Origin: Diphasiastrum complanatum
Taxonomy: Eukaryota; Streptophyta; Lycopodiopsida; Lycopodiales; Lycopodiaceae
Reading direction: 5' to 3'
NCBI GenBank assembly: GCA_029204225.1
Contig: CM055103.1
Location: 57,212,205 to 57,276,204, forward strand
Length of the DNA: 64,000 bases
A model generated the notes under the pieces. That model was given only the letters and a program-made list of their open reading frames with translations. It searched no databases and had not been told where the DNA came from. This document shows positions 3,675 to 64,000 of this stretch, in pieces. Within the stretch, counting starts at the first letter, position 1. Every line of letters begins with the position of its first letter. Position numbers and translations under genes: made by a program.

Positions 3675-4484
3675 TGTTGGTAAATTGTCAATATGAGGCC
3701 AAAACTCATTTTAGACTTAGAGATAAACTTTCTAAAGTTATATTAGTTTAAGATACATTCAATAAACACTTTTTGAAAGTGTATAAAAGTTGGTAGTTGA
3801 GTTTGAGAGAGATTCAAATTTGAACTTTGGGTACATTGAATCTAGACCCAAAAATAGTAGGTTTTACATTTTGGAGAGAAAGCCAAGTGGCAAAATAGGC
3901 TTTGGACCTGTTATAAAAGGATGTAACTCATGGAGAGACACATCTTCTCTTTTCTCTCTCTCATTTCATCATTATACATGGTTCTCTTTGGGTTCTACTA
4001 CTCATTGGTGCACTCTCATGATGTTATCTTGCAATTCTATGTGTAGAATGATCATTTATTGCTATTTTTGGTTCCACATGTGTGAAATATAGTAGGGTAC
4101 TGTAATTGTATGGACAAAAACTATATTTTATGTTTTGGTTCATGTTCAGTATCTCTTAGAGTTTGCATCTCATTTTGTATGTAGATGCTGAATTTTCTAC
4201 ATTGGTAGGATTGTTGGTTTGCTCCTTATTGTAACCAAAGATCAGGGACATGGATTGGATCTTGAATGATCTAAAATCCTTCACAAACTCTAGATAAGTC
4301 GACAGTGTCTGTCGTCACCTTGGAGGACTGTAGATCCTGTCACAAAGGGTAGTAGACCCAAGGACACAATCGAATTTTATCTGGGTTTGTTTCTGTGGGA
4401 GTCTCAATAGTGGGTATCAGAGGACGAAATAATTTGTGTCTATATGCCCACTGCACCCATTATTGAACAGAGATTTTTCCATCA
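3675..4484 (+). repeat. Probable plus-oriented copia LTR
   Basis: It starts TGTTGGTAAATTGTCAA, resembling the reverse complement of the end of the 7045 LTR, and ends TTTTTCCATCA. It is followed at 4486 by TGGTGTTAGAGC, a degenerate initiator-Met-tRNA primer-binding site, and another GGTATTAGAGCC lies at 4519. A TATA-like TTATAAAAGG near 3911 is followed by a CT-rich stretch, as in LTR promoters. No matching second LTR or plus-strand gag follows, so it is a solo or truncated LTR. Boundaries are inferred. Confidence 0.5.
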
Positions 4485-4599
4485 GTGGTGTTAGAGCAGA
4501 GATTATTTCTTCAACAACGGTATTAGAGCCATGATAGGCTCATATCCGAGACCTGATATAGCTAAAGAGCTATCAATATTGTCATTGAGGACTCCCTTG

Positions 4600-5936
4600 G
4601 AACTCTCATGCTTTGAGGCTGATCCTCAAAATCTTCCTCCTTTTGATGCTCCTCCTCAATGCAAGCAAGATCTCCTCTTGAGTGATCTCCTCCTTTGCCA
4701 AGCTCATTCTTTCAAAAGCAACCATAGCTTCCAACTTAAACAATCTTCCATGTTTAAATCCCTTTGCAATGCAGACATCATTCTTCAATATGAAACAAAC
4801 ACCATGCTTAAAGTGGAATCCAAACCAATTTCTAAGAGTAGACCAACACTGAGCATATTCTTGGTGATTGATGGTACATAAAGGACATTTTCTAGATCCA
4901 TGCATTTTGAGGATTCTAGACACAGAGAGATGGTGCCAACACCATCTATCCTACACTCTTCATCATTTGCAGTAAAGACAAACTTTGTAGCATCATTGAA
5001 TGAGTGTAAGGTTGAGAAAAAGTCCTTTTCAAAAAACATGTGGGAGCTAGCCCCACTGTCGATCCACCAATTGTCTCTTGAATTGCTATTGCTTGTTGGT
5101 GAGGATGTAGATGCTATCAAGAATACATCTACTTCATCTTCCTCCTCCTCCTTTGCAAGGTTTCCTTGTTTGTCCTCCTCCACTTGTGCTCTTAGCCTCT
5201 TGTAGCATTCAAATGAATAATGCCCCTTCTTTCCACAAAAGAAGCATTTTTTCTTTGACTTTTCCGGTGAGCTTGATGCATCATCATCTTCTTTGGCCTC
5301 CTTTGGATGCTTCTTCTTTCCATTCGCCTTCTTTTTTCCCTTGAATGAGAAATTGGCTTTCTCATCACCATCCTACAAAGACAAGGAACTCATCCTAGAT
5401 TTTGCATGGAGTATCCTACACTCTTCAACCACTAATACACTGTGAAGTTTTTTTATAGTTGGCAAAGTGTCTTAGATGACAAAACTTTGGAACACATTTG
5501 CAAAGCCAAATCCTAGACCATTAAGAACAATTTGTACAAGCTCTCCATCATGAATCTTCTCTCCATCATGTGCACTCTCCTCACTTCTTTTCATGCTTTG
5601 CAAAATCTGATTTCTAAGCATGAGAATCCTTGAAGTGTTACTAGATTCATAGATTGATTTTAAAGACTCCCAAGCCTCTTTAGCACCTTTACATGATGAT
5701 ACTTCCCTAAAAAAATCATTGCTCACATTCATTTTCACACAATGAAGTGCTAGCCTAGATCTCTTTTTGTATATCACTAATTCCTATGCAGCTAGAGGTT
5801 CATCTTCATCCTCAATCAAAAACTCATAAAGGTATTAGAGCACCAAAAGTGACTCCATCCTAACCTTCCAAATAGCATAGTTTTTTGAAGTCAATCTCTC
5901 ACTAGCTTCTAGAAGGTATGCTCCAGCAGATCCCAT
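4600..5936 (-). pseudogene. Ty1/copia gag-protease fragment
   Basis: The gag frame starts at ATG 5936 (MGSAGAYLLEASERL) and continues in several frames. The middle of gag is at 5777-5472 (KEAWESLKSIYESSNTSRI). A CX2CX4HX4C zinc knuckle (CFFCGKKGHYSFEC) lies at about 5250-5205. The aspartic protease motif WWIDSGASSHM lies in the 5183-4785 frame, followed by the region leading to GAG-pre-integrase. Stops and frameshifts between these blocks show decay, and it ends near 4600 without integrase. It belongs to the older copia whose leader is 5937-6390 plus 12822-13163 and whose 5' LTR is 13177-13952, now split by a younger insertion. Confidence 0.85.
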
Positions 5937-5952
5937 ATTACAGTGACTTCTA

Positions 5953-6290
5953 CAAACAAGAAATAGATTTGATTGACTTGAAACTCACAAAGGTCCCACA
6001 CTTGCAGTGTTTCACTCAAATTTGATTTCTAATCCAACAACTGGACTTATAATCACAGTTCTATCACTCCCTCACAAAGATGGAACGAAGATAAGATGAA
6101 GTGAAAACTACTTTCAAACAAATCTTGCCAAGAAATGGATTTGATTGTCTCTAGAAACTCACTAAGGTCTCTCTCTTGTAGTGTTTCACTCAAATTAGAT
6201 TTCTAATCCAACAAATGGACTTATAATCTCAGTTTTAGAACTCCCTCACAAAGTTGGATTGAAGATAAGATGATGTGAAATCTACTTACA
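5953..6290 (-). repeat. Tandem duplication in an old copia leader
   Basis: Two diverged units of about 160-170 bp lie head to tail (about 5953-6112 and 6125-6290). Each contains TTTGATTG, GTGTTTCACTCAAATT, TTTCTAATCCAACAA, GGACTTATAATC and ACTCCCTCACAAAG in the same order. They lie in the untranslated leader upstream of the gag ATG at 5936. Confidence 0.75.
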
Positions 6291-6390
6291 ATCAAATCTT
6301 GTCAATTTTGGCTATTTTTGGACAATAACAAGACTAAATCTCCCGCACACTTTTTGATGTACGTTCAAGACCTATAAAAAAAGTTTAGAG

Positions 6391-7045
6391 TGTGAAAAAT
6401 ACAGATCCTAAGTGGATCTAAACTCCAAGATCATTGGCTTGAATGCTTGCACTCCAAACTACATAAGCTAGGAATTGGCAACACATTCTATGCTACCTAG
6501 AATGCAAAGAACTTGATCAAAAAGCATTTATCACAAATGGAAACTTCCATAAACATCAAGTGCGGCCCAAAATAGCATTATACAGTCCATAATACATCAG
6601 CCTACCACTTTTGAAAAGCACCTAAGATCATACACAATAGCTTGAAGACAATACACACAACAATGCTCTCAATGGAGGAAGAAACAATGACAATGATCTA
6701 TTGATCTCAATGAAGCATACAAAAGGTTTCTCCAACCTGTTCTCCACGACTTCCCTACTATTTATGGATGAGGAAGATGACTCTCTCTCCTCTCTCTAGA
6801 AGGTACTTGACCCTAGATATTCCCTATATAGGAAAAATAGCTAAAAATGGCTTATATGACCAAAATACATCAAAATGGTCTCATTTTGAAGGGTATGAAG
6901 TTTGAAACTTCATCATACTGAAAAAATACAGTAAATAAAAACATTGTGGCCTGGTTCACACGTGTGAAACTCCAGAACCAAAACTATTTACAATTTTAGC
7001 CAATTTAGGCCTCAAACTAGCTAGGAAATGTTGACAATTTTCACA
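6391..7045 (-). repeat. 3' LTR of the young copia
   Basis: It begins TGTGAAAAAT and ends TTTTCACA on the plus strand (TG...CA). In element orientation it carries a TATA-like CCTATATAGGG near 6830 upstream of a GA-rich stretch, and a TTCACACGTGTGAA palindrome with a G-box at 6959-6964. Confidence 0.96.
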
Positions 7046-10000
7046 CTCCCTCTTCAACATTGGATGCTAGTTTCAACATAGTCTTTGAGCACATTCCAAG
7101 ATTAGATCTATGCATTAAATATAGGTCCTTTCCCAATGGTTTGGTGAAGATATCAGCCACACACTCCTTTGAAGAGACATGTTGAAGCTCCACCTCTTTG
7201 GCAATGACTTGATCTCTCACAAAATGGTGAGCAATCTCAATGTGCTTGCTCCTTGCATGAAAAACAGGATTGCTTGCCAAGCTTTGGGCTGAAAGGTTAT
7301 CACAAAGTATGATTGGAGTCTTCTCTGGTTCCAGCAAGTGAAGATCCAATAACATCCTCTTGATCCAAAGAATCTCCTTGGTGCATGTTGTTAATGCCTT
7401 GTACTCGGCTTCGGTGGAAGATAGAGAGATAGTTGGTTGCTTCTTTGATAGCCATGAGACCACTCCATCTCCAAGATAGATTGCAAAGGCACTTGTTGAC
7501 TTCCTATCCATTTGATCACCTGCAAAATCTGAATCTGAAAATCCACAAAGGTTAGGTGTAGTACCTCCATACAAGATGCCAAAATCTCTAGATCCCGAGA
7601 TGTATCTAAGTACTCTCTTTCCTAGCTTCCAATGAGCCTCACTAGGATCTTGCATAAATTGACTTAGTTTACCAACCACAAAGCTTAGATCAGGTCTTGT
7701 GATGGTTAACCATATAAGAGATCCTATTAGCTTTCTATAGAGAGTAATGTCCTTGAAGGATCTTTCATTACTTCTTGTAGTTAGCTTTACATTTGATTCC
7801 ATAGGAGTAGAAACAACTTTACAATCTTCCATATGAAACCTTTTTAGAATAGAGTTAACATACTTTTCTTGACATATGAATGTAGATTTAGAAGTTCTAA
7901 TAATCTCTATTCCTAAGATATAATGAAGTTTACCAAGATCTTGAATTTCAAACTCTCTTTTGAGTGCCATCTTGATTTCATCTATATCTAGATTGTTACC
8001 ACCACTTAAGATAATGTCATCAACATAGATCAAAAGTAAAGTGATATCATTTTCATTCAATCTAAAGTAGAGAGAATGATCATACTCACTCATAACAAAG
8101 TTTTGAGAAAGTAAGAAGGAATTGAGCTTAGCATACCAACTCCTTGGTGCTTGCTTTAGCCCATACAAACTCTTTTGGAGATAGCACACATGATTAGGCT
8201 CATCATGTGAAACATAGCCCTCGGGTTGCTCCATGTAAATATCTTCTTCAAGATCACCATTCAAGAAGGCATTAGTAACATCCATTTGCCACATATCCCA
8301 ATCATAAAGAGTTGCAAGAGAGATTAGGATTCGAATAGTTACCATCTTTGCCACGGGTGCAAAGGTCTCATCATAGTCAATACCATATTCTTGAGCATAC
8401 CCCTTTGCCACCAACCTTGCCTTGTACTTGTTGATTGATCCATCTTGATTTGTCTTGATCTTGAAGATCCACTTACAACCAATTGCCTTCTTGTCCTTTG
8501 GAAGCTTTACCAACCTCCATGTGTTGCTTTTGATGAGTGCTTGATGCTCATGATCCATGGCTTGGATCCATTCCTTCTTTTGAATTGCTTCACCTACACA
8601 AGTTGGTTCATCAAAAGAGGTAAGAAAAGCAAAGTTAGAGTTGTCCACCACTTGCTTTCCTTTTTCATCATAGGTTAGCCTTGATGGCTTAGCCCTTTGC
8701 CTTTGAGTCTTCCTTGAAGTTTGCTTTGGAGTGGCATCTCCATCTTCATCCAAGACATCTTGCACATCATGATGATTAGTAGGCACATCAACATCAACAT
8801 CAACAACATTGGAAACATTCTCTTCATGAAAGATGACATCCCTACTTATGACAACTTTCTTTGTAGAAGGAATGTACACTTTGTAAGCCTTTCTTACTTC
8901 ACTATAGCCAACAAACACACCCTTCTTTGATGAAGGATCTTCTTTAGTTCTATCATCAAGTGTGATATTGACAAAACATGTACATCCAAAGATCCTACAA
9001 TGCTTGACACTCGGCCTTCTACCATAAAGAACCTCATGAGGAGTTTTACCATCCAAGGAAGCACTTGTCCATCTATTACATAGATAGTTAGCACATGCTA
9101 AAGCTTCCCCCCAAAAAGGTTTAGCAAGATTAGCATGTAGTCTCATTGCCTTGGCACATTCACAAAGGGTTCTATTCTTCCTCTCGGCCACTCCATTCTG
9201 TTGTGGAGTCCTAGGACTAGACATCTCCCTCTTAATCCCATGTGCTATACAAAAGTCTTTGAACCTATTTGAGGTGTATTCCCCTCCATTATCAGATCTT
9301 AAGCATTTGATCTTTGTATTGAATTGGTTTTCCATTTCATTCTTGAACTTGACAAATGCAGCAAACACTTCATCCTTACTTTTAAGAAGATAGATCCAAG
9401 TATACCTACTAAAGTCATCAATGAAAGTTGCATACATCTTTGCCCCACCATTGCTAGTTGTACTAGAAGAATGAATATCAGAATGCACAAGTTGAAAAGC
9501 TTCTTTAGATCTAGAAGTAGATCTAGAATAAGCAAGTCTATGAGATTTGGACAAGGCACAATGTTCACAAACACTATTGTTTGCAACAAGACTTTTAGGG
9601 AGACCAAGAACAAGCTCTTTCTTTGCCATTACCTCCAAAGATTTGAAGTTGGGATGGCCCAACCTCTTGTGCCAAACTTCTTGGTTTGTCAATTGCTCCC
9701 TAGCCATACATCCTTCATGATTAGAGATCACACATGCATCAAGCTTGAAAAGTTTACCATGCCTCCTACCTTGAGCAATCAAGGATCCACATTTACTTAT
9801 CAAACATGCATCTCCAATGAACTCCACATCAAGTCCTTTGTCAATCATTTGACTTACACTAAGCAAATTCTTAGTGATTGAAGGAATGTACAAAACATTT
9901 TCAAGATTTGCTTTCCTATTTGTTGAAAGGGAAATAGGAATAGTGCCTATGCCTTTGATGTCACATTGACCATCATTTGCAGTGTAGATGATGTTACCTT

Positions 10001-10994
10001 CTCCCTCATAAGACAATAAGGATGTAAAGTATTCCTTATGTCTTGTCATGTGAGATGAGGCTCCACTATCAATCCACCAAGGATCATTATCATCTATGTT
10101 GGCTAACAAACTTGAAGTCATAACAAGTGATTCACATGTGTTATGTTCTTCCTCATCTATTGTAAGATTTCTTTGCCTCTCTCCTTGCTCTCTTTTCTTC
10201 TTATAACATTCATTTGCAAAATGACCTTTTATCCCACAATAAAAGCACTTGAACTTTGACTTATTGTTCTTAGTAGAAGAGGAAGAGGAAGAGTGATCAT
10301 CATGATCAAAGTTACCACCTTTGGACCATTTCCCTTTGCCTTTACCTTTGCCCTTGAATTTGCCTTTTGTGAAGAAAGCCTCTTCACCTCCACCTTGCAA
10401 GGATGCACCATCAAGCTTTGATTGCAACCTATGTTCTTCAGCCAATAAGATTTCTTGCAAGTCAACCACACTTGGCAAGACTCTTTGAATGGCAAAACTT
10501 TGCACAAGGTTAGCATGTTCATTTAGCAAACCATTCAACATAACTTGGACTATTTCACCATCTTTTATGTTCTCATCAATGCATGCTAAATCATCACTTA
10601 GGGACTTAACTCTCAAGATAAATGCATGAGCACTTTCACCCTCTCTTTGCCTACTAGAAAATATTTGTCTCCTTAGGGTCAATACCCTAGATGTGGACTT
10701 TGATTCAAAGAGCTTCTTTAAGGCATTCCATGCCTCACTTGCACTTTGACACTTTCCAACTTCCTTGAGAAGTTCATTTGTAACATTCATTTTAATGATA
10801 TGAAGAGCCCTTTTGGCCTTCTTATCAAACCTTTGTTGCTCTTGAAGTGTGAGAGGTCTCTCTTCAATTTCTGCAACTATGTCCATGAGTTCATTCAACT
10901 CAAGTAAGGACTCCATCCTCACTTTCCAAGTAGAGTAGTTTGATGAACTCAACCTTTCACTAGACTCTAGCATGATCCCACCATTGGAAGCCAT
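7041..10994 (-). CDS. Copia gag-pol polyprotein, intact, 1317 aa
   Basis: One frame encodes all retrotransposition functions. The gag capsid-like region is at residues 15-185, then a Lys/Gly-rich stretch, then the zinc knuckle C250-C253-H258-C263. The aspartic protease site is D309 (WWIDSGASSHM). GAG-pre-integrase has H442/H447 and C476/C479. The integrase triad is D506, D568 and E604 (DD35E). Reverse transcriptase has D905 (MDVTNAFLNG) and YVDD at 990-993. RNase H has D1154, E1197 and D1232, ending in the usual copia tail (HARSKHIE, ADIFTKPL). Length and order are normal for a single-frame plant copia. The start MASNGGIMLESSERL aligns with gag starts of the other copies in the window. No stop or frameshift and no lost catalytic residue was seen. 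The stop lies at the polypurine tract. It differs from neighbouring copia genes by being undamaged. Confidence 0.97.
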   Translation of the reverse strand: MASNGGIMLESSERLSSSNYSTWKVRMESLLELNELMDIVAEIEERPLTLQEQQRFDKKAKRALHIIKMNVTNELLKEVGKCQSASEAWNALKKLFESKSTSRVLTLRRQIFSSRQREGESAHAFILRVKSLSDDLACIDENIKDGEIVQVMLNGLLNEHANLVQSFAIQRVLPSVVDLQEILLAEEHRLQSKLDGASLQGGGEEAFFTKGKFKGKGKGKGKWSKGGNFDHDDHSSSSSSTKNNKSKFKCFYCGIKGHFANECYKKKREQGERQRNLTIDEEEHNTCESLVMTSSLLANIDDNDPWWIDSGASSHMTRHKEYFTSLLSYEGEGNIIYTANDGQCDIKGIGTIPISLSTNRKANLENVLYIPSITKNLLSVSQMIDKGLDVEFIGDACLISKCGSLIAQGRRHGKLFKLDACVISNHEGCMAREQLTNQEVWHKRLGHPNFKSLEVMAKKELVLGLPKSLVANNSVCEHCALSKSHRLAYSRSTSRSKEAFQLVHSDIHSSSTTSNGGAKMYATFIDDFSRYTWIYLLKSKDEVFAAFVKFKNEMENQFNTKIKCLRSDNGGEYTSNRFKDFCIAHGIKREMSSPRTPQQNGVAERKNRTLCECAKAMRLHANLAKPFWGEALACANYLCNRWTSASLDGKTPHEVLYGRRPSVKHCRIFGCTCFVNITLDDRTKEDPSSKKGVFVGYSEVRKAYKVYIPSTKKVVISRDVIFHEENVSNVVDVDVDVPTNHHDVQDVLDEDGDATPKQTSRKTQRQRAKPSRLTYDEKGKQVVDNSNFAFLTSFDEPTCVGEAIQKKEWIQAMDHEHQALIKSNTWRLVKLPKDKKAIGCKWIFKIKTNQDGSINKYKARLVAKGYAQEYGIDYDETFAPVAKMVTIRILISLATLYDWDMWQMDVTNAFLNGDLEEDIYMEQPEGYVSHDEPNHVCYLQKSLYGLKQAPRSWYAKLNSFLLSQNFVMSEYDHSLYFRLNENDITLLLIYVDDIILSGGNNLDIDEIKMALKREFEIQDLGKLHYILGIEIIRTSKSTFICQEKYVNSILKRFHMEDCKVVSTPMESNVKLTTRSNERSFKDITLYRKLIGSLIWLTITRPDLSFVVGKLSQFMQDPSEAHWKLGKRVLRYISGSRDFGILYGGTTPNLCGFSDSDFAGDQMDRKSTSAFAIYLGDGVVSWLSKKQPTISLSSTEAEYKALTTCTKEILWIKRMLLDLHLLEPEKTPIILCDNLSAQSLASNPVFHARSKHIEIAHHFVRDQVIAKEVELQHVSSKECVADIFTKPLGKDLYLMHRSNLGMCSKTMLKLASNVEEGV
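7046..7060 (-). promoter_or_regulatory. Polypurine tract of the young copia
   Basis: On the minus strand GAAGAGGGAG lies directly before the 3' LTR (TGTGAAAATTG). This is the expected place for plus-strand DNA priming in copia replication. It overlaps the last codons of the polyprotein. Confidence 0.8.
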
Positions 10995-56966: not shown

Positions 56967-58839
56967 TTATAGCTTCACCCCAATATTCAATAGGCAAAGA
57001 AACTGCTACTCGAATTGCTTTAGCACATTCACATAAAGATCTGTTTTCCCTCTCAGCTACTCCATTTTGGGATGGAGAATAGGCACAAGGTTATTCTCTC
57101 TTTATTCCTTCACCTTCACAATAATTATGAAACTTGTTGGAGATATATTCACCTCCTCCATCACATCTTAAAGCTTTAACTTTGCAAGAAAACTGTTTTT
57201 CTACATAAGCTTTGAAGATAAGGAAGTGATCAAAAACCATAGCCTTTGAAGAAAGTAGATACAACCAAGTGTATCTAGTAAAGTCATCAATAAAGGTGAC
57301 AAAATATGTTGCACCACCAATACTTTTAGGAGAGAAAAAATGTACATCTGAATGTATGAGTTCCAATGGATAAGTAGTCTTTATAAAAGACTTCTGATAT
57401 GGCTTTCTGTGTGACTTTGGAATGGCACAAGCCTCACGAGGCTTGAAATCTTTAGAAAGAGATTTTGGAAGACCAAAAGCCTTCTCCTTCTTAACCATAG
57501 AAGACATAGATATAAAGTTAGGATGTCCCAACCTTCTATGCCACAACTCCTCCTTAGATAACAAAGCAAATTCACAAATGTTTGCATTCTCATAAGAATT
57601 CAAGTTAAAAATTCCACCACATCTAGTTCCATCAGCAAGGATCTCATCTTTTCTCTTGATAAAACAAGTAATGGAGTTGAACTTTACATCACAACCATTA
57701 TCAAGCAACTTTCCCACACCAATTAAGTTCTTTGTAAGTTTTGAAATGAAAAGAACATTAGAAAGTACAAGAACTTTTGAAGAAACAAGTTTCAATGGAA
57801 TGTTGCCGATTCCTTCTATTGGACACTCATGATCATTAGTTGTGTAAATAAATCTCTTGAGTCCTTTGAAAGATAAGATTGAGTCAAACGACTCCTTTGA
57901 ACAACACATATGTGAAGAGGCTCCACTGTCTATGTACCAAGCTCCATCTTTCTTGAGAGGTAATGAAGAAAAATTGGACACCATAAGTGATCCTTCTTCA
58001 TCACTTGCAATAGAATCTTCTTCAATCTCTTTGGAGAGATTAGCTTGTTTGAGTTGGTTTTCCTTCTTAAAGCAATTAGAGGCATAGTGCCCCTTTTTGC
58101 CACAGAAGAAGCAGTTCACTTTCTTCTTCTTGGTTTTTGAGTTAGAGGGATGAGATGTTTCATCCTCTTAACCATCTTGATCTCGATCTTTGGCTTTGTC
58201 TTTGTTGTATGCTTGAGAGAATTGGTCCTTACTCCTTCCTTTCTACTTCCCTTTGAGAAAGAGGGCTTTGTCACTTCCATCATGTTCGAGTTTGTTCATC
58301 CTGGAGAGTTTATAGCTTTGTCTAGATTCTTCAGAAATAAGAATTCCTTGGAGAGTTTCTAGATTAGGTAACTCCTCCTTAATAGCAAAAGACTGAACAA
58401 GATTATCATAGTCATCTCTCAAGCCATTCAATATGACTTGAACTAGCTCAACTTGGTTAATGGTAACACCAACACAGGAAAGCTCTCTATGTAAATCCTT
58501 AACTCTCTAAACATAGTTAGATGCACTCTCTTCACTTCTTTGGAAACTTTGGAAAATCTGATTCCTAAGAGTGAGTATTCTAGAAGTATTCTTTGCTTCA
58601 TAGATGGCCTTTAGTGCATCCCAAGCTTCTTTGGCTGTAGTGCAAGATCCTATCTCTCTCAAAATTTCATTAGATACATTCATCTTAATGAAATGTAGAG
58701 CCATTCTAGCAACACCAAGCACAGTATCCATAACGTCCTGGAGAATCAAGACAAAATCCATTCTTAACTTCCAAATTGAATAATTTGAAGTGTTTAGTCT
58801 TTCACTGGCTTCTAGAAGATATCCTTTCTGAGATGCCAT
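56967..58839 (-). pseudogene. Defective copia gag-protease-integrase, copy 2
   Basis: It is nearly identical to 41463-43335: the same gag start (MASQKGYLLEASERL at 58839), zinc knuckle, protease (WYIDSGASSHM), GAG-pre-integrase and integrase start (LIHSDVH, RCDGGGEY). The four stops of copy 1 are at the same places. It is cut at 56967 inside integrase, 400 bp earlier than copy 1. Differences are scattered substitutions (for example CSKES for CSKDS). Confidence 0.9.
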
Positions 58840-59983
58840 TATAATGAAGACTTCTTAGTTATTGGATTGAGATATGTTTGAGCTTGTTCCTATCAGACTT
58901 AGAGTTGTTGCTCTCTTCACTATAGGTATTTTCAAGGTTGAACTACCTTCCTATGTGAAATACTTGCAACTATATTTGAGATGAATCTCAAATATGCCAC
59001 AAGACAAGTTTTCTAGATCCATTAGAGGAGTTCTAAATCCAAAAAAGACCCTTTGTAAAGATTTTTTTTATATTTTTTCTCAAATTTTTCTTACACGTGG
59101 ACTAATCAAAACACTGAAATTTGAAATCTACGTAACGTAACTTTTTGAGTCCACATTTTGATTCCATACTAAAAATGGCATAGCTTTTTAGTGGTAAGTC
59201 CAAATTTAGTGAAGTTTGGTGCATTGGAAAGCGCTTGACAAGGCCTTTCCAATGATATGTTAGATGACATACTTCTAAGCTACAATTAAAAAGTTATGGC
59301 AAGTCAAACGTCTTAGTGTTATAATATTTTAATAATAAAAAAAGCATCTTGCACGAATTCTTAAAGGATCTTTTTGAAACTCAAAACTCCTCTAATGAGA
59401 CACAAAAAGTGGTTTGAGACACTTTGGTTGGTTTGAAATCTACTTTTGGCATGTGTGAAATGCTTCAAAAGAAAACACTATTGACACTCAGAAGGCTCAA
59501 AGGGTGTTCAAATACTTCAAATCAGTCGTGATCTATAGTTTCTTGTGTTGGATGCTCAAAACAATGAATTCAGAAAAAAGTATAATTGAATCAAATTAAA
59601 ATGCTGTCACTCGGATTTTGGACCTATCCCTATCCTCTTTAAGAGCTTATAACTCTTGCTAGACACATCAGATTGATTTGATTTCAATTTCTATGGAAAG
59701 TACAGATCAAATGCTTTCCATCAAGCTATAACACTGCTATCTTTGGATCTACAAGGAGAACAAAGGGACTGAATAACTCTGATTTTCACACGTGCGGAAT
59801 TCTAGAATTCCGTACTTCCTCAATTCAGGTCTAAAAGTTCAGTTCAAGTCCGATTTGATCCAAATACACTTTAGAGAAAGGTTAGAAAAAGTGCAAAACT
59901 GCTTTTTTGCTTGATTTAGCTCTCAGTTTCTTGTACAATCAAAGTTGTTAGCATGCAGAGCTTATGTGGCTCTGATACCATGA
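58840..59983 (-). other. Leader and PBS of defective copia copy 2
   Basis: About 1.1 kb of untranslated sequence ends with GGCTCTGATACCA at 59971-59983, an exact initiator-Met PBS complement. Near 58993-59000 it shows the empty insertion site CAAATATGCCACAAG that corresponds to the ATATT duplication of the nested element in copy 1. Confidence 0.85.
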
Positions 59984-60779
59984 CAAAATTTCCAGAATTT
60001 ACATGTGTGAGGAATGTCCACAAGAGTGACTGATCTTAATTAAGCTTTGTGATTGGCACTATAACCTGATTCTAGATTGATCAACAAAATCTAGTTCAGA
60101 AGAAATGGCTAATCCACAATCTAGCATGCTAATCAATAGAATATAATAGTAATGAATCAAAGAATGAATAAAAATACAAGATTTCAATGTATGAGCATTA
60201 GCCTCAACACGAGTTAGAGAGAGAGAGAGAGCTAGAGAGATAACAAGCAATATTTGTTTAGATCCAAAATGGCATGAGATGGCTACAAAACTTTGGTCCT
60301 TTATCCTTGATTGTGTGGAGAGCTACACATATTTATGAAGTTTGAGGTAGCTCGAGGTAGAACCATATCTATCCACTCCAAAATGACATCTAAAGTGACA
60401 TCTAGAGTCTATGTGACATTTGTCACTTGTCATGCATGAAATTCTACCAACTTTTTACAAGTGTACTAGTTCTAACTAGAAATGTCCAAATCATCATGCA
60501 TGTGTCCGTTAAACTTTGTGCATGCCTTGCATGTCACTATGGATCACTTACAATTAATGCATGTGAGTTGCCACGAGTTTCTACAAGCATAATCATGCTA
60601 ATTCTATGTCTACAAACTATATGCAAGTTGCATTTATCAAACTAGATAATACATAGCCATGTAGCTCGAGTTCTATTTAGGCCAAACTTGGCATTTTTTA
60701 TTAATGAGCTACATACTTGCATGGCACAACATTTGTAGCAAGCCAAGAAATCAATATGGATTGTTTTTCAATTTTAACA
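59984..60779 (-). repeat. 5' LTR of defective copia copy 2
   Basis: It begins TGACAAAATTTCCAG next to the PBS and ends TTTTTCAATTTTAACA (796 bp). A GA-rich run lies at about 60214-60240. The end agrees with the LTR family pattern TTTTTCAATTCTTCACA. ATATT follows outside, but no second copy is available to prove a target duplication. Confidence 0.75.
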
Positions 60780-60839
60780 ATATTGAACCAAGACATCAGC
60801 AAATTCTCCTGTGTCGTCTACTTTTTCGCTAGCAGGAGG

Positions 60840-63800
60840 CTAAGGTTCCTTGGATAAGAGAATTATTGTATCCTCGCTGTCCAAACTCTTTCCCACCTCA
60901 GATAATTCATCTGGCAAAATTGAAAGAGATTTCATTCTCATTTTTATAGAATCAACTAAATTAGTATCTAAATCTACTGCAGCAACATGTTTGTCTTTCT
61001 GAACAGCATATGCGCTCGTAGTGCCGCTACTGCTAAATAAATCTAAAATCCAATCAGCTGGGTGAGAAAAAATATCAATTAAATGATTAATTAATGGTTG
61101 TGGCTTTTGGTAGGGACAAGCCACGGAATCCGTCATTGGATATTTTAATTTCTTTGTCACAGTTGGATGCTGAAACAAGTTTCCAAAACTTGTCAGTTCG
61201 GAAGTGTTATAATGCAGCATCGAGTGTTTGTCATCCAAAGAATAATAACCGATGGTTATGTATTCTATTTCATTTGCAAAGTCGAGCTCCTCCTGAGTTC
61301 TTGACATTGGGCTTGTACCTGACATGGAACATTACAAGTAAAATCAATTTAAAATTTTAACTTTAAAATAAAAAATTTAAAATAAAATTATGAATTAAAA
61401 TACGAATTGATAATTTAGGAACTTAAGAACTTACCACACAGCATTCTCAATTCCCACATTACAGAAAGTTAGTAGAGCTTTCTGTACTGATGCTGACTGT
61501 CAAGAAGAATGAAAAATAACAACTCTCCAAATTGGAGAAGTTGTGACTTCAAGAAAGCCCTGCATAAAACTACGGATTTCAGTGAATTTGAAAGGAGTAT
61601 TATCATTTAATGATTCCTTCATCTGAAATCCAAATGGTGTATCGGCGATGGAGAGTGTATAAGCATTTTTTTTAGAAATTTTGAAATTTCTCTGCAATCG
61701 CCCTCCTCAACAGAGTAAAAGCATGGTTGATCATCGACACTTTTGGGAAGATAGGTCTCTAATGGAACCTCCTCCGCAATGGTCTCACCCCGTGCCAATC
61801 TCTCCCTGTCCTTTTTTTTTCTGCTTTTGCCTTCAGAATATGTCTCTTGAATTGTTCTGGAAGGACTTTGTTTTTTTTGTCTTCAGGAGACTGAAAAGGA
61901 AAAAGCTATGCTTAGCATGGGAGACAAAAAATATAAAATAGAATAGGAGACTTAACTTATCAAAAAATAATAATTAAATAAAGAAAAAGCTATGCTTAGC
62001 ATAGGAGACATAGAATATAGAAAAGAAACAATCAATAAGCACCTATGCTAAGCATGGGTGAAATAAATACCATGTCTCTAAACCAAATAAAAAATAGACT
62101 CAGGGTTTCATTTCGGCTGCTCAGAGGATAAAGCCTCACTCATCGAAATCTTGACAGTTTAACCCTGTCACAAGGGAACTTTCATAAATAATTTGTGCCT
62201 GCATTTGAGAAATATAATTGTTAAAAATCCAACCAAATTATGAAAATCATTTTATTAAAAAAGATAACATGAAAATAAATATTTGAATTATGATTATTAC
62301 CTCTAAAATTCTTTTCTCATTTCTGCCAAGGGAAGTTGACCATCAGCAACTCTTGAAAGAACACTTATTATTAGTTCTGAAGAACTAATCCCTTGCATAT
62401 TCTTTCACTCTGATATTCCCATTTCAGTAGGGATTGGCTTCAGAGTTTGAGTGCTCACAACTTTTTTTTTGGACTTTGAGGCACCCTGAGCAGGTTGGCC
62501 TTCTATTTGAAAAGTTTTCCACTTAATAAAAATTTTATCAACAAGGGCCCACACCTGAAATAAAAAAAAAATTCATTGATAAAGAAATTAACCAATATTA
62601 AAATTGAGTTCAAAATTTTAGTCTGATAAAAATAATTTAAAAAGAATATAACATATATTATGACCAGAGCATTCCATGACGAGCATAGCCAAATAAATTA
62701 CTTGGCCACTTCGAAAAGCAAACTTAAAAAAATTATCGTATTTAGTAAGGCTCTACGTAGGATTTTTCGAATCAAAAGACAAGCCTGTCTCTTGAGCACA
62801 TAGTGCTTTCAGCTCAAGTTGATTCACATCTCCTGCTTTGGAGACTCTCACGTATTCTTTGCGAAAAAACGAATTCTTTTTGTATCACGGTCATCTTCAT
62901 CCGGTAGTCCTGATCAATGTTGTGGTCCCAAGCCAATAATTTCGCTTCTTCTGTCAGACAAGCAAATGCAATGGCACTCACAGTTCAAAAGCTTGGGATA
63001 TGGGGATACTCTTGAGATAATTGTGTTTGAGCTTGTAAATTGTGTATCCCCTCAAGAACAGAAAAATGATATGAATCTAATAAAGAAAAATGAAAATTTG
63101 CAACATCGTTGCATTCGTTGGGATCAACCAAAACAACAAAGGGAGTAACTATGGCCTGTGTATGATCTTTAAATTTTATTTTTAAATTATGTACATGTGT
63201 TTCATTAGGCTCTCTAACTTCCATTGGCCTGTCTCCTGTTATTGGGTCTACATGTGGCCTATCACACTGATTTATGTCTAAAATTGAAGTTGTTTTTTTT
63301 ATTTCTTTTGTTTTATGGATATCCTCTCTTAATTTGGCAAGTTCAGAGCTGTCTTGTAATGGGCAGATGGATGCACCAGGTAGCAAAAAAGATGGTTCAG
63401 TGGCGGCTTTTTTGCTTTCAATAGAAGGGATGGACTTATGGCGATGTGTAGCCATGGTCTTTGGGCGTGACTTAGGTCTAGTGGGCGAAGTCTCAGAATT
63501 ATTATGAGATCTTTTTTTTTTTGGGATGAGGGACGGCTACGGTTTCATCCTCAACATTTTCAAAGGCCGGCTTTGTGACCTGAGCAGTGGTAGAAGCAGA
63601 CTTGCAAGGTCCAATAGATACATCTTTTGAACTCCGTAATGGATAGACTGGATCTTTTTCCTCAACAATAGCAGCTAAAACCATTTTTAAGCATTGCTTC
63701 ATGTTCTGGATAGAAACAAAAATCAAGTTCAAAAACTAAAAGCTTAAATCTAAAAGTTTAAATAATTTTATATCTAATAACAACTATGCTAAGCATGAAA

Positions 63801-63872
63801 CAAACATGATTAAAAATATATTTTATAATTACTCACCAAAGTAACTAGAGCAATAGGCTTTGATGGCCTCAT
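60840..63872 (-). pseudogene. ParB-like / beta-class DNA amino-methyltransferase fusion, broken
   Basis: Six exon-like blocks are visible: 63872-63837, 63705-62665, 62554-62301, from 62198, 61890-61435 and 61318-60840, mostly with good GT-AG borders. Block 2 has a Lys-rich stretch (PKKKK), then a ParB/sulfiredoxin-like region (EVREPNETHVHNLKIKF, IVTPFVVLVDP, YHFSVLEGIHNLQAQ) and EEAKLLAWDHNID. Block 5 has the methyltransferase motif IV as IADTPFGF (DPPF expected) and RSFMQGFLEVTTSPIWRVV. The splice to block 6 gives NAVW/YKPN. Block 6 has IEYITIGYYS, then KPQPLINHLIDIFSHP and motif I as DLFSSSGTT. Order IV before I marks the beta class, which methylates adenine N6 or cytosine N4. Frameshifts and stops (62985, 62753, 62405, 62303) disable it. 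The true start may lie beyond 63872, since an adjacent frame is mostly open towards 63985. Confidence 0.75.
61908..62055. repeat. ATGCTTAGCAT palindromes in introns
   Basis: ATGCTTAGCAT occurs at 61908-61918 and 61992-62002, and its complement ATGCTAAGCAT at 62045-62055 and, in the first intron, at 63786-63796. The first two share longer flanks (AAAAAGCT before, GGAGACA after). Confidence 0.85.
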
Positions 63873-64000
63873 CCTGACAAAGTTAGATCTTTATCATAGT
63901 CTCATTCAGAATGAAAATAGAACGAGACTTATCCGTCTCCTTTACAAGTATATTCACAAAACCTTCTTCTTGATTCTCATCTGTTTGTCAACAAGCAATG
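63873..64000 (-). other. Upstream side of the ParB-methyltransferase gene
   Basis: On the minus strand, a frame different from the chosen start reads DENQEEGFVNILVKETDKSR, then SIFILNETMIKI before a TAA. This may be more of the first exon after another frameshift, so the gene could run off the window. Confidence 0.35.

Follow-up and report, generated by a model that had tools for sequence, protein, structure and literature searches.

We found that the 64,000-nucleotide stretch of the Diphasiastrum complanatum genome analysed here (the window; part of contig C12 in an assembly of 1.74 Gb and 5176 contigs) contains a dead copy of a cut-and-paste DNA transposon of about 9 kb, aboard which is an intron-split methyltransferase gene. 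An earlier sequence-only reading had placed open blocks on the minus strand at 60840..63872 and interpreted them as a ParB-methyltransferase fusion of bacterial or phage type that entered the nuclear genome, gained introns and spread, perhaps in a transposon. The blocks are present there on that strand, but the range was too narrow, as the copy extends from 60779 to the equivalent of about 66418. A methyltransferase domain of bacterial or phage type in the nuclear genome, split by introns and spread by a transposon, was upheld; the analysis gave no evidence that it arrived as a ready-made ParB-methyltransferase fusion. That reading had overlooked three parts of the element: a transposase-like gene, the terminal repeats and a set of palindromes. 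We suggest, with confidence slightly short of even, that a protein of the element might bind the element's own palindromes and write an amino-methyl mark that counters silencing, which would resemble the VANC system with an enzyme added.

The element belongs to a family with hundreds of copies in the genome. The methyltransferase block of the window gave 2903 first-look genomic candidates, of which 150 were scored and all matched (71-100% identical); the ParB-like block gave 2406 (150 scored, 152 matches), and the Pfam N6_N4_Mtase profile gave 1605 (150 scored, all above the cut-off). The listed matches were spread over contigs C1 to C23, and the contigs whose length was seen measured 42-102 Mb. 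Twenty copies were retrieved with 10 kb each, and six were extended 10 kb further upstream. The right end was retained in 15 of the 20; the left end was present in c17a, its duplicate c17b, c6, c20, L011 and L012, and nearly so in c13. The termini, AACACGATGAC... and ...GTCATCATGTT, form an 11-bp inverted repeat (AACAYGATGAC) with one mismatch. Exact 4-bp target duplications flanked all four of the first two-ended copies (AACT in c17a, AACT in L012, AATA in L011 and ATGT in c20) and six of ten further end-paired copies, that is, 10 of the 14 copies examined. The ten were taken from 13 noticed end pairs, leaving out L011 (already counted), one likely segmental duplicate and one pair 17 kb apart. 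From end to end c17a measures about 9.1 kb, and the ten end pairs span 1.5 to 10.9 kb. With two mismatches at most, the 31-bp left end occurred at 353+330 genomic places, while its reversed pattern occurred at none.

These data also bear on the origin of the blocks. There is next to no chance that the blocks are bacterial contamination or one domesticated gene of the host: we found nothing in its favour beyond the bacterial type of the domain, whereas the intron borders, the matches on C1 to C23, the terminal repeats and the target duplications refute it for the family. The contamination check raised by the sequence-only reading gave the same answer, considering the large contigs, the intron borders and a Copia element alongside the window copy. 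A long interspersed nuclear element (LINE) had been considered from the first coverage table, with its seemingly fixed right and ragged left ends, and was excluded by the shared left end, the terminal repeats and the target duplications.

Two individual loci deserve mention. On contig C17, L016/L029 and L019/L030 (38.03-38.05 and 38.16-38.18 Mb) form an inverted pair of about 20 kb, 99% identical, with two element copies; it is a segmental duplication rather than a product of transposition. In the c20 copy (L033/L027, joined positions 4157-10018), the gene for DUF7869, treated below, is split by a 5.9-kb insertion whose 654-bp ends are 100% identical, probably a very young long terminal repeat (LTR) retrotransposon.

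The methyltransferase gene consists of an N-terminal exon, a large ParB-like exon, two linker exons and two methyltransferase exons. The window copy, which corresponds to element positions of c17a from about 8152 down to 4911, lacks both element ends in comparison with other copies, and blastn of c17a against the whole window gave no second copy. It is broken by an in-frame TGA within the ParB-like exon and by frameshifts. Its features are as follows.

60779..64000, minus strand: truncated transposon copy (single blastn hit of the c17a copy, 60779-63999, 92% identical)
60840..61318, minus strand: last exon, AdoMet (S-adenosylmethionine)-binding half of the methyltransferase, with motif I FSSSGTT at 61017-61043 and an early frameshift (Pfam N6_N4_Mtase, 4.9e-11)
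61319..61434, minus strand: intron GTAAGT...CAG (61434-61319) joining NAVW to YKPN, a junction noticed in the sequence-only reading and confirmed (window sequence; same junction in L035)
61435..61890, minus strand: exon carrying the catalytic motif IV, which reads DTPF (61632-61643); frameshifted in the window copy (copy comparison; joined exons of relatives match N6_N4_Mtase at 2.9e-15)
61908..61918, no strand: palindrome ATGCTNAGCAT, intron site
61992..62002, no strand: palindrome ATGCTNAGCAT, intron site, 84 bp from the site at 61908..61918
62045..62055, no strand: palindrome ATGCTNAGCAT, intron site, 53 bp from the site at 61992..62002
62080..62203, minus strand: linker exon 2, in pieces (tblastn of L035 exons; hand-converted coordinates)
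62306..62554, minus strand: linker exon 1 (VWALVDKIF...), with TTTCAG just before it (tblastn of L035 exons and sequence)
62771..63705, minus strand: large ParB-like exon (VREPNE, PFVVLVDP, VLEGIHNLQAQ), with the in-frame TGA and a frameshift
63786..63796, no strand: palindrome ATGCTNAGCAT in intron 1
63853..64000, minus strand: N-terminal exon in part (relatives read MSRISFK...), of no known family; the remainder lies beyond the window (hand-converted coordinates)

Next to the transposon copy, pieces of a Copia-type LTR retrotransposon (gag, zinc knuckle, gag-pre-integrase and integrase) occupy 57091-58854 of the window on the minus strand.

Judged from its sequence, the encoded domain is a beta-class N6/N4 amino-methyltransferase of bacterial type. 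The window block 60840-61331 matched Pfam N6_N4_Mtase at 43.4 bits (4.9e-11; curated cut-off 26.7) and PHROG methyltransferases down to 5.9e-9, in agreement with the domain first proposed for it. The two joined exons of the near-identical c17a and c17b, with one stop passed, covered nearly the whole Pfam profile (2.9e-15, 57.3 bits), and their best match in the PDB was CcrM (6pbd, 5.2e-9), with RsrI at 4e-7; NCBIfam also gave CcrM at 4e-10, yet with 39 bits against a cut-off of 830. In hhalign, a profile of the copies and 79 viral ParB-methyltransferases aligned over 66 columns around motif I, with a probability of 96%. Motif IV precedes motif I, as in the beta class, and its usual form DIPY departs from the common DPPY. 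Among 15 other readable copies, 11 had DIPY (8 DIPYG and 3 with another next residue), and motif I was FSGSG in 12 of 20. The DTPF and FSSSGTT to which the sequence-only reading had pointed are present in the window, but look like mutated forms of these motifs. Its statement that plant nuclear DNA is otherwise methylated only by C5-cytosine enzymes appears too strong, because an N4 methyltransferase reportedly occurs in Marchantia sperm, although our literature search did not find it.

Close relatives outside the genome were not met in scans that reach close relatives only. Of the viral scans with methyltransferase, presumed transposase and ParB-like queries, one returned a single 43-residue match at 42%, and one prokaryote scan returned none; tblastn against phage and plasmid sequences found only distant methyltransferases, the best-covering listed hits being 23-26% identical. 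The viral contig L036 (IMGVR_UViG_3300021400_001778) carries at 3739-5204 two adjacent methyltransferase-like genes with DIPF motifs, one of which shares NAVWYK with the element protein. Several further N6_N4_Mtase matches lie on contig C24 near 5.15-5.57 Mb; two of them top the Pfam search, with seven stops each, and they perhaps represent another subfamily.

The other gene of the element lies in its left third, opposite in strand to the methyltransferase gene, and its product matched DUF7869 at 6.4e-51 (c17a piece, one stop passed). In the genome, DUF7869 had a best match of 1.7e-53 and 2953 first-look candidates (150 scored, all above the cut-off), while the profile matched nothing in 14 control genomes. 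The PDB held no convincing relative (best 0.041), and no paper on DUF7869 was found in the literature searched. Presumably this gene is the transposase, given its position in the element. The two genes diverge from the middle of the element: among listed places, 14 of 17 DUF7869-partner pairs within 12 kb were divergent (12 of 14 DUF7869 places), a count that drew on 127, 127 and 130 listed places (out of 150, 152 and 150) and left out most small contigs. At C1:22795446-22799745, a left end, a stop-free DUF7869 frame and at least seven exact 17-bp palindromes lie within 4.3 kb.

The DNA between these genes and in introns of the methyltransferase gene carries an array of palindromes. In five of five elements ATGCTNAGCAT was the commonest odd palindrome, and sites with a neighbour within 60 bp give the 21-bp AACCTATGCTNAGCATAGGTT, with flanks that are little conserved. 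The central base was even in 68 clustered sites (A16 C17 G16 T19), and a palindrome with such a free centre is the type of site that a symmetric dimer would bind. In the 20 loci, 129 exact cores fell into the 84 kb shared by at least three other copies versus 2 in the remaining 116 kb (both counts include the duplicate loci L018 and L019). The window has four exact cores, all inside the element, where 0.08 were expected. Five long copies had 7-13 exact cores each, with 9 more in a second piece beside c6, and truncated copies had few or no palindromes. All 66 sites lay outside the exon blocks, which cover 56% of that DNA, although the copies are related and these are not 66 independent events; a probability of 2e-24 for this count, which presupposes independence, was set aside. 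Genome-wide, the 17-bp form occurred 2141 times, a scrambled palindrome once and the reversed pattern never.

Of 71 spacings below 130 bp between sites, 29 were 40-42, 12 were 53-54 and 14 were 83-85 bp. The spacings of 30, 40-42, 53-54 and 84 bp are near whole helical turns, and R was 0.66-0.85 at 10.5 bp in five elements; however, there are spacings of 34, 70, 75, 81 and 86 bp as well, a period of 14.3 bp gives the better fit in three of the five, and the array grew by duplication, so the spacings are not independent.

The position of the sites bears on what they may serve. Between the two genes, five copies had 9-12 sites with one core mismatch allowed (3-9 exact), and in c17b a site is found 34 bp away from where the DUF7869 gene presumably starts. 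Both facts would suit a transposition clock: the enzyme would methylate the palindromes (core GCTNAGC) or DNA close to them, and the state of methylation would act as a switch for the divergent promoters and the transposase. Dam methylation switches IS10/Tn10 transposition in this way, and the target of CcrM, which was the best match in the PDB, is GANTC, a palindrome whose central base is free. Nevertheless, 21 bp is a long palindrome for the target of a methyltransferase, and c17a has no exact site in its first ~3.5 kb or last ~2 kb, which speaks against simple transposase end-binding as well. Such a switch, which uses the same parts as the anti-silencing proposal, seems unlikely to us. Very unlikely, in turn, is a reading in which the methyltransferase gene is an unrelated passenger and the palindromes form a regulatory region to which the transposase or a host factor binds. 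The absence of a direct link between protein and site would be in keeping with a passenger, as would the single DUF7869 frame with an array nearby at C1:22.80 Mb, but in the five mapped copies palindromes occupy not only the space between the genes but also two introns of the methyltransferase gene.

The exon with VREPNE, PFVVLVDP and VLEGIHNLQAQ is real and recurrent across the genome, but the ParB-like label attached to it could not be sustained. Pfam scans of the exon gave no ParB_N match, NCBIfam no ParB support, and PDB searches by single sequence and by profile no hit; PF02195 was not found over the whole genome, while the same profile was positive in 11 of 14 control genomes. In hhalign, the alignment of the copies against viral ParB-methyltransferases (79/80 loci) had a ParB probability of 0.5%, the alignment being shallow (Neff, the effective number of sequences, 1.5). 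When 1000 shuffles and one reversal of each of three copies were searched with hmmsearch, 16 of 837 shuffles scored as well as the best copy (L027), and 94 of 826 and 210 of 862 as well as the other two. The AlphaFold2 single-sequence model had a pLDDT (predicted local distance difference test) of 37, and its best Foldseek match an E value of 9. None of these tests supports a ParB identity. By eye, the motif order PFVVLVDP / GIHxLQAxxxL / LTxEEAxLLAxxxN looks ParB-like, which is an impression rather than a result. Since the alignment was shallow and the fold was attempted from one sequence, a very distant ParB relation may still be conceived, and the exon is not filed as ParB.

Selection was evaluated on the consideration that variants of a single copy mostly arose after insertion, whereas variants common to several copies mostly come from the active lineage. 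The measure was the observed-to-expected ratio of non-synonymous over synonymous changes, with the majority base of each column as the reference state. For the ParB-like exon (11 copies) it was 0.81 in singletons, 0.27 in variants of at least two copies and 0.11 in those of at least three (Fisher P 0.001 and 0.0005), and this exon was, by its variants, clearly under purifying selection while the element was active. The stretch ahead of it gave 0.70 in singletons and 0.68 and 0.46 in shared variants. The methyltransferase domain, for which the first 150 codons of the last exon were compared in 21 copies, gave 0.85, 0.76 and 0.51, and was perhaps constrained in the same period. L018, L019 and L005, duplicates of L017, L016 and L007, were left out of the motif and selection counts and partly of the site counts, and the short loci L001, L002, L004, L006 and L008 out of the hhalign, motif and selection comparisons.

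That the ParB-like exon was more strongly constrained than the methyltransferase domain, and that motif IV reads DIPY instead of DPPY, raises the question of whether the protein is a DNA-binding accessory factor on the palindromes, as TnpA is in En/Spm, with an enzyme domain that is idle or has a secondary role. In opposition to this, DIPY persists in 11 of 15 other copies and FSGSG in 12 of 20, and phage methyltransferase genes with DIPF exist. We regard such an idle enzyme as distinctly unlikely.

Returning to an anti-silencing role, the protein of the methyltransferase gene would bind the AACCTATGCTNAGCATAGGTT sites between the genes and in the introns, probably through its N-terminal part. 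The methyltransferase would then put N6-methyladenine (6mA) or N4-methylcytosine (4mC) on the DNA of the element, and this mark would keep the element's promoters active against host silencing. The system would thus act like VANC of the Arabidopsis VANDAL elements, which belong to another superfamily, with an enzymatic mark added. A wider form of the idea is possible, though on balance doubtful: a self-marking system of a plant transposon, in which its own protein would load on clusters of 21-bp palindromes, many near whole helical turns apart, write a non-C5 mark (6mA or 4mC), tell self from host DNA and resist silencing by C5 methylation, as a transposon-borne epigenetic insulator of which the literature searched gave no description.

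Several findings weigh against the anti-silencing proposal. Nothing ties the palindrome to the methyltransferase protein over the presumed transposase or a host factor, and no recognised DNA-binding domain was found in that protein. The decay footprint is nothing base-specific beyond general C-to-T change (28 at the inner C of 320 half-sites versus 30 at each outer C), and in the 49 sites other than the clustered ones the centre leans to T. The selection on the methyltransferase domain was not significant (P 0.09, variants of at least three copies versus singletons), and the C-terminal tail shows no constraint (1.35, 1.10 and 1.18). Motif IV was changed in 4 of the 15 other copies (a stop, DISY and twice YIPY) and motif I in 8 of the 20; dead copies are expected to decay, which accounts for these changes and gives no proof of a live copy. 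No copy mapped exon by exon has every exon whole and stop-free. Stop-free frames were seen in many listed matches of the methyltransferase, ParB-like and DUF7869 searches; L009-L028, except the window copy, had been picked for a high-scoring stop-free last exon and L035 for stop-free frames of both exons, so that counts of stops are biased. Finally, 3 of the 17 gene pairs were on the same strand, and four of the ten further end-paired copies were without an exact 4-bp duplication (two off by one base, one by two and one by all four).

Escape of transposons from silencing is known for few systems, and reports of 6mA in plants have been questioned (PMC12695648). With its many copies, an amino-methyltransferase of its own and a defined candidate site, the present transposon makes the proposed mark directly testable. 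The nearest functional parallel is VANC of VANDAL21. VANC is element-encoded, binds short motifs, often in tandem, in non-coding stretches of the element that it comes from, and brings about a loss of methylation (PMC5735166). Both are mobile elements with a second gene and with a short motif repeated in introns and intergenic DNA; VANC differs in that it acts by methylation loss and is not described there as a methyltransferase, and in its motif, YAGTATTAY (PMC5735166). Eukaryotic mobile elements with their own DNA methyltransferase are likewise on record: C5 methyltransferases in LINE, DIRS and Gypsy elements, including the DNMT-bearing retrotransposons of Symbiodinium and Klebsormidium, and Dam-like genes in DIRS. 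These are retrotransposons with C5 or Dam-type enzymes, and the portion seen notes no palindrome array (PMC5890265). Among DNA transposons with accessory genes, methyltransferases occur in virus-borne Mariner elements and Fanzor in Sola2 (PMC3627910); the accessory protein of the present element differs from these. Sola2 has 4-bp AT-rich target duplications and terminal repeats of 12-13 bp or 21 bp (PMC3627910), compared with 4 bp and 11 bp here, a likeness that does not by itself point to Sola, and the element was not assigned to that superfamily.

With respect to the enzyme, N4CMT of bdelloid rotifers is also a bacterial-type N6_N4_Mtase with introns in a eukaryote; in contrast, it belongs to the host, has a chromodomain and acts on transposons without being carried by one (PMC8885841). 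The phage ParB-methyltransferase fusions (L040 and its viral relatives) share with our element an N-terminal domain ahead of a beta-class methyltransferase, but the ParB_N of L040 is recognised by Pfam (8.8e-11), and the N-terminal domain of the element is not. The literature searched, outside which most subscription papers lay, listed no DNA transposon of plants that combines an amino-methyltransferase of the beta class with an array of palindromes.

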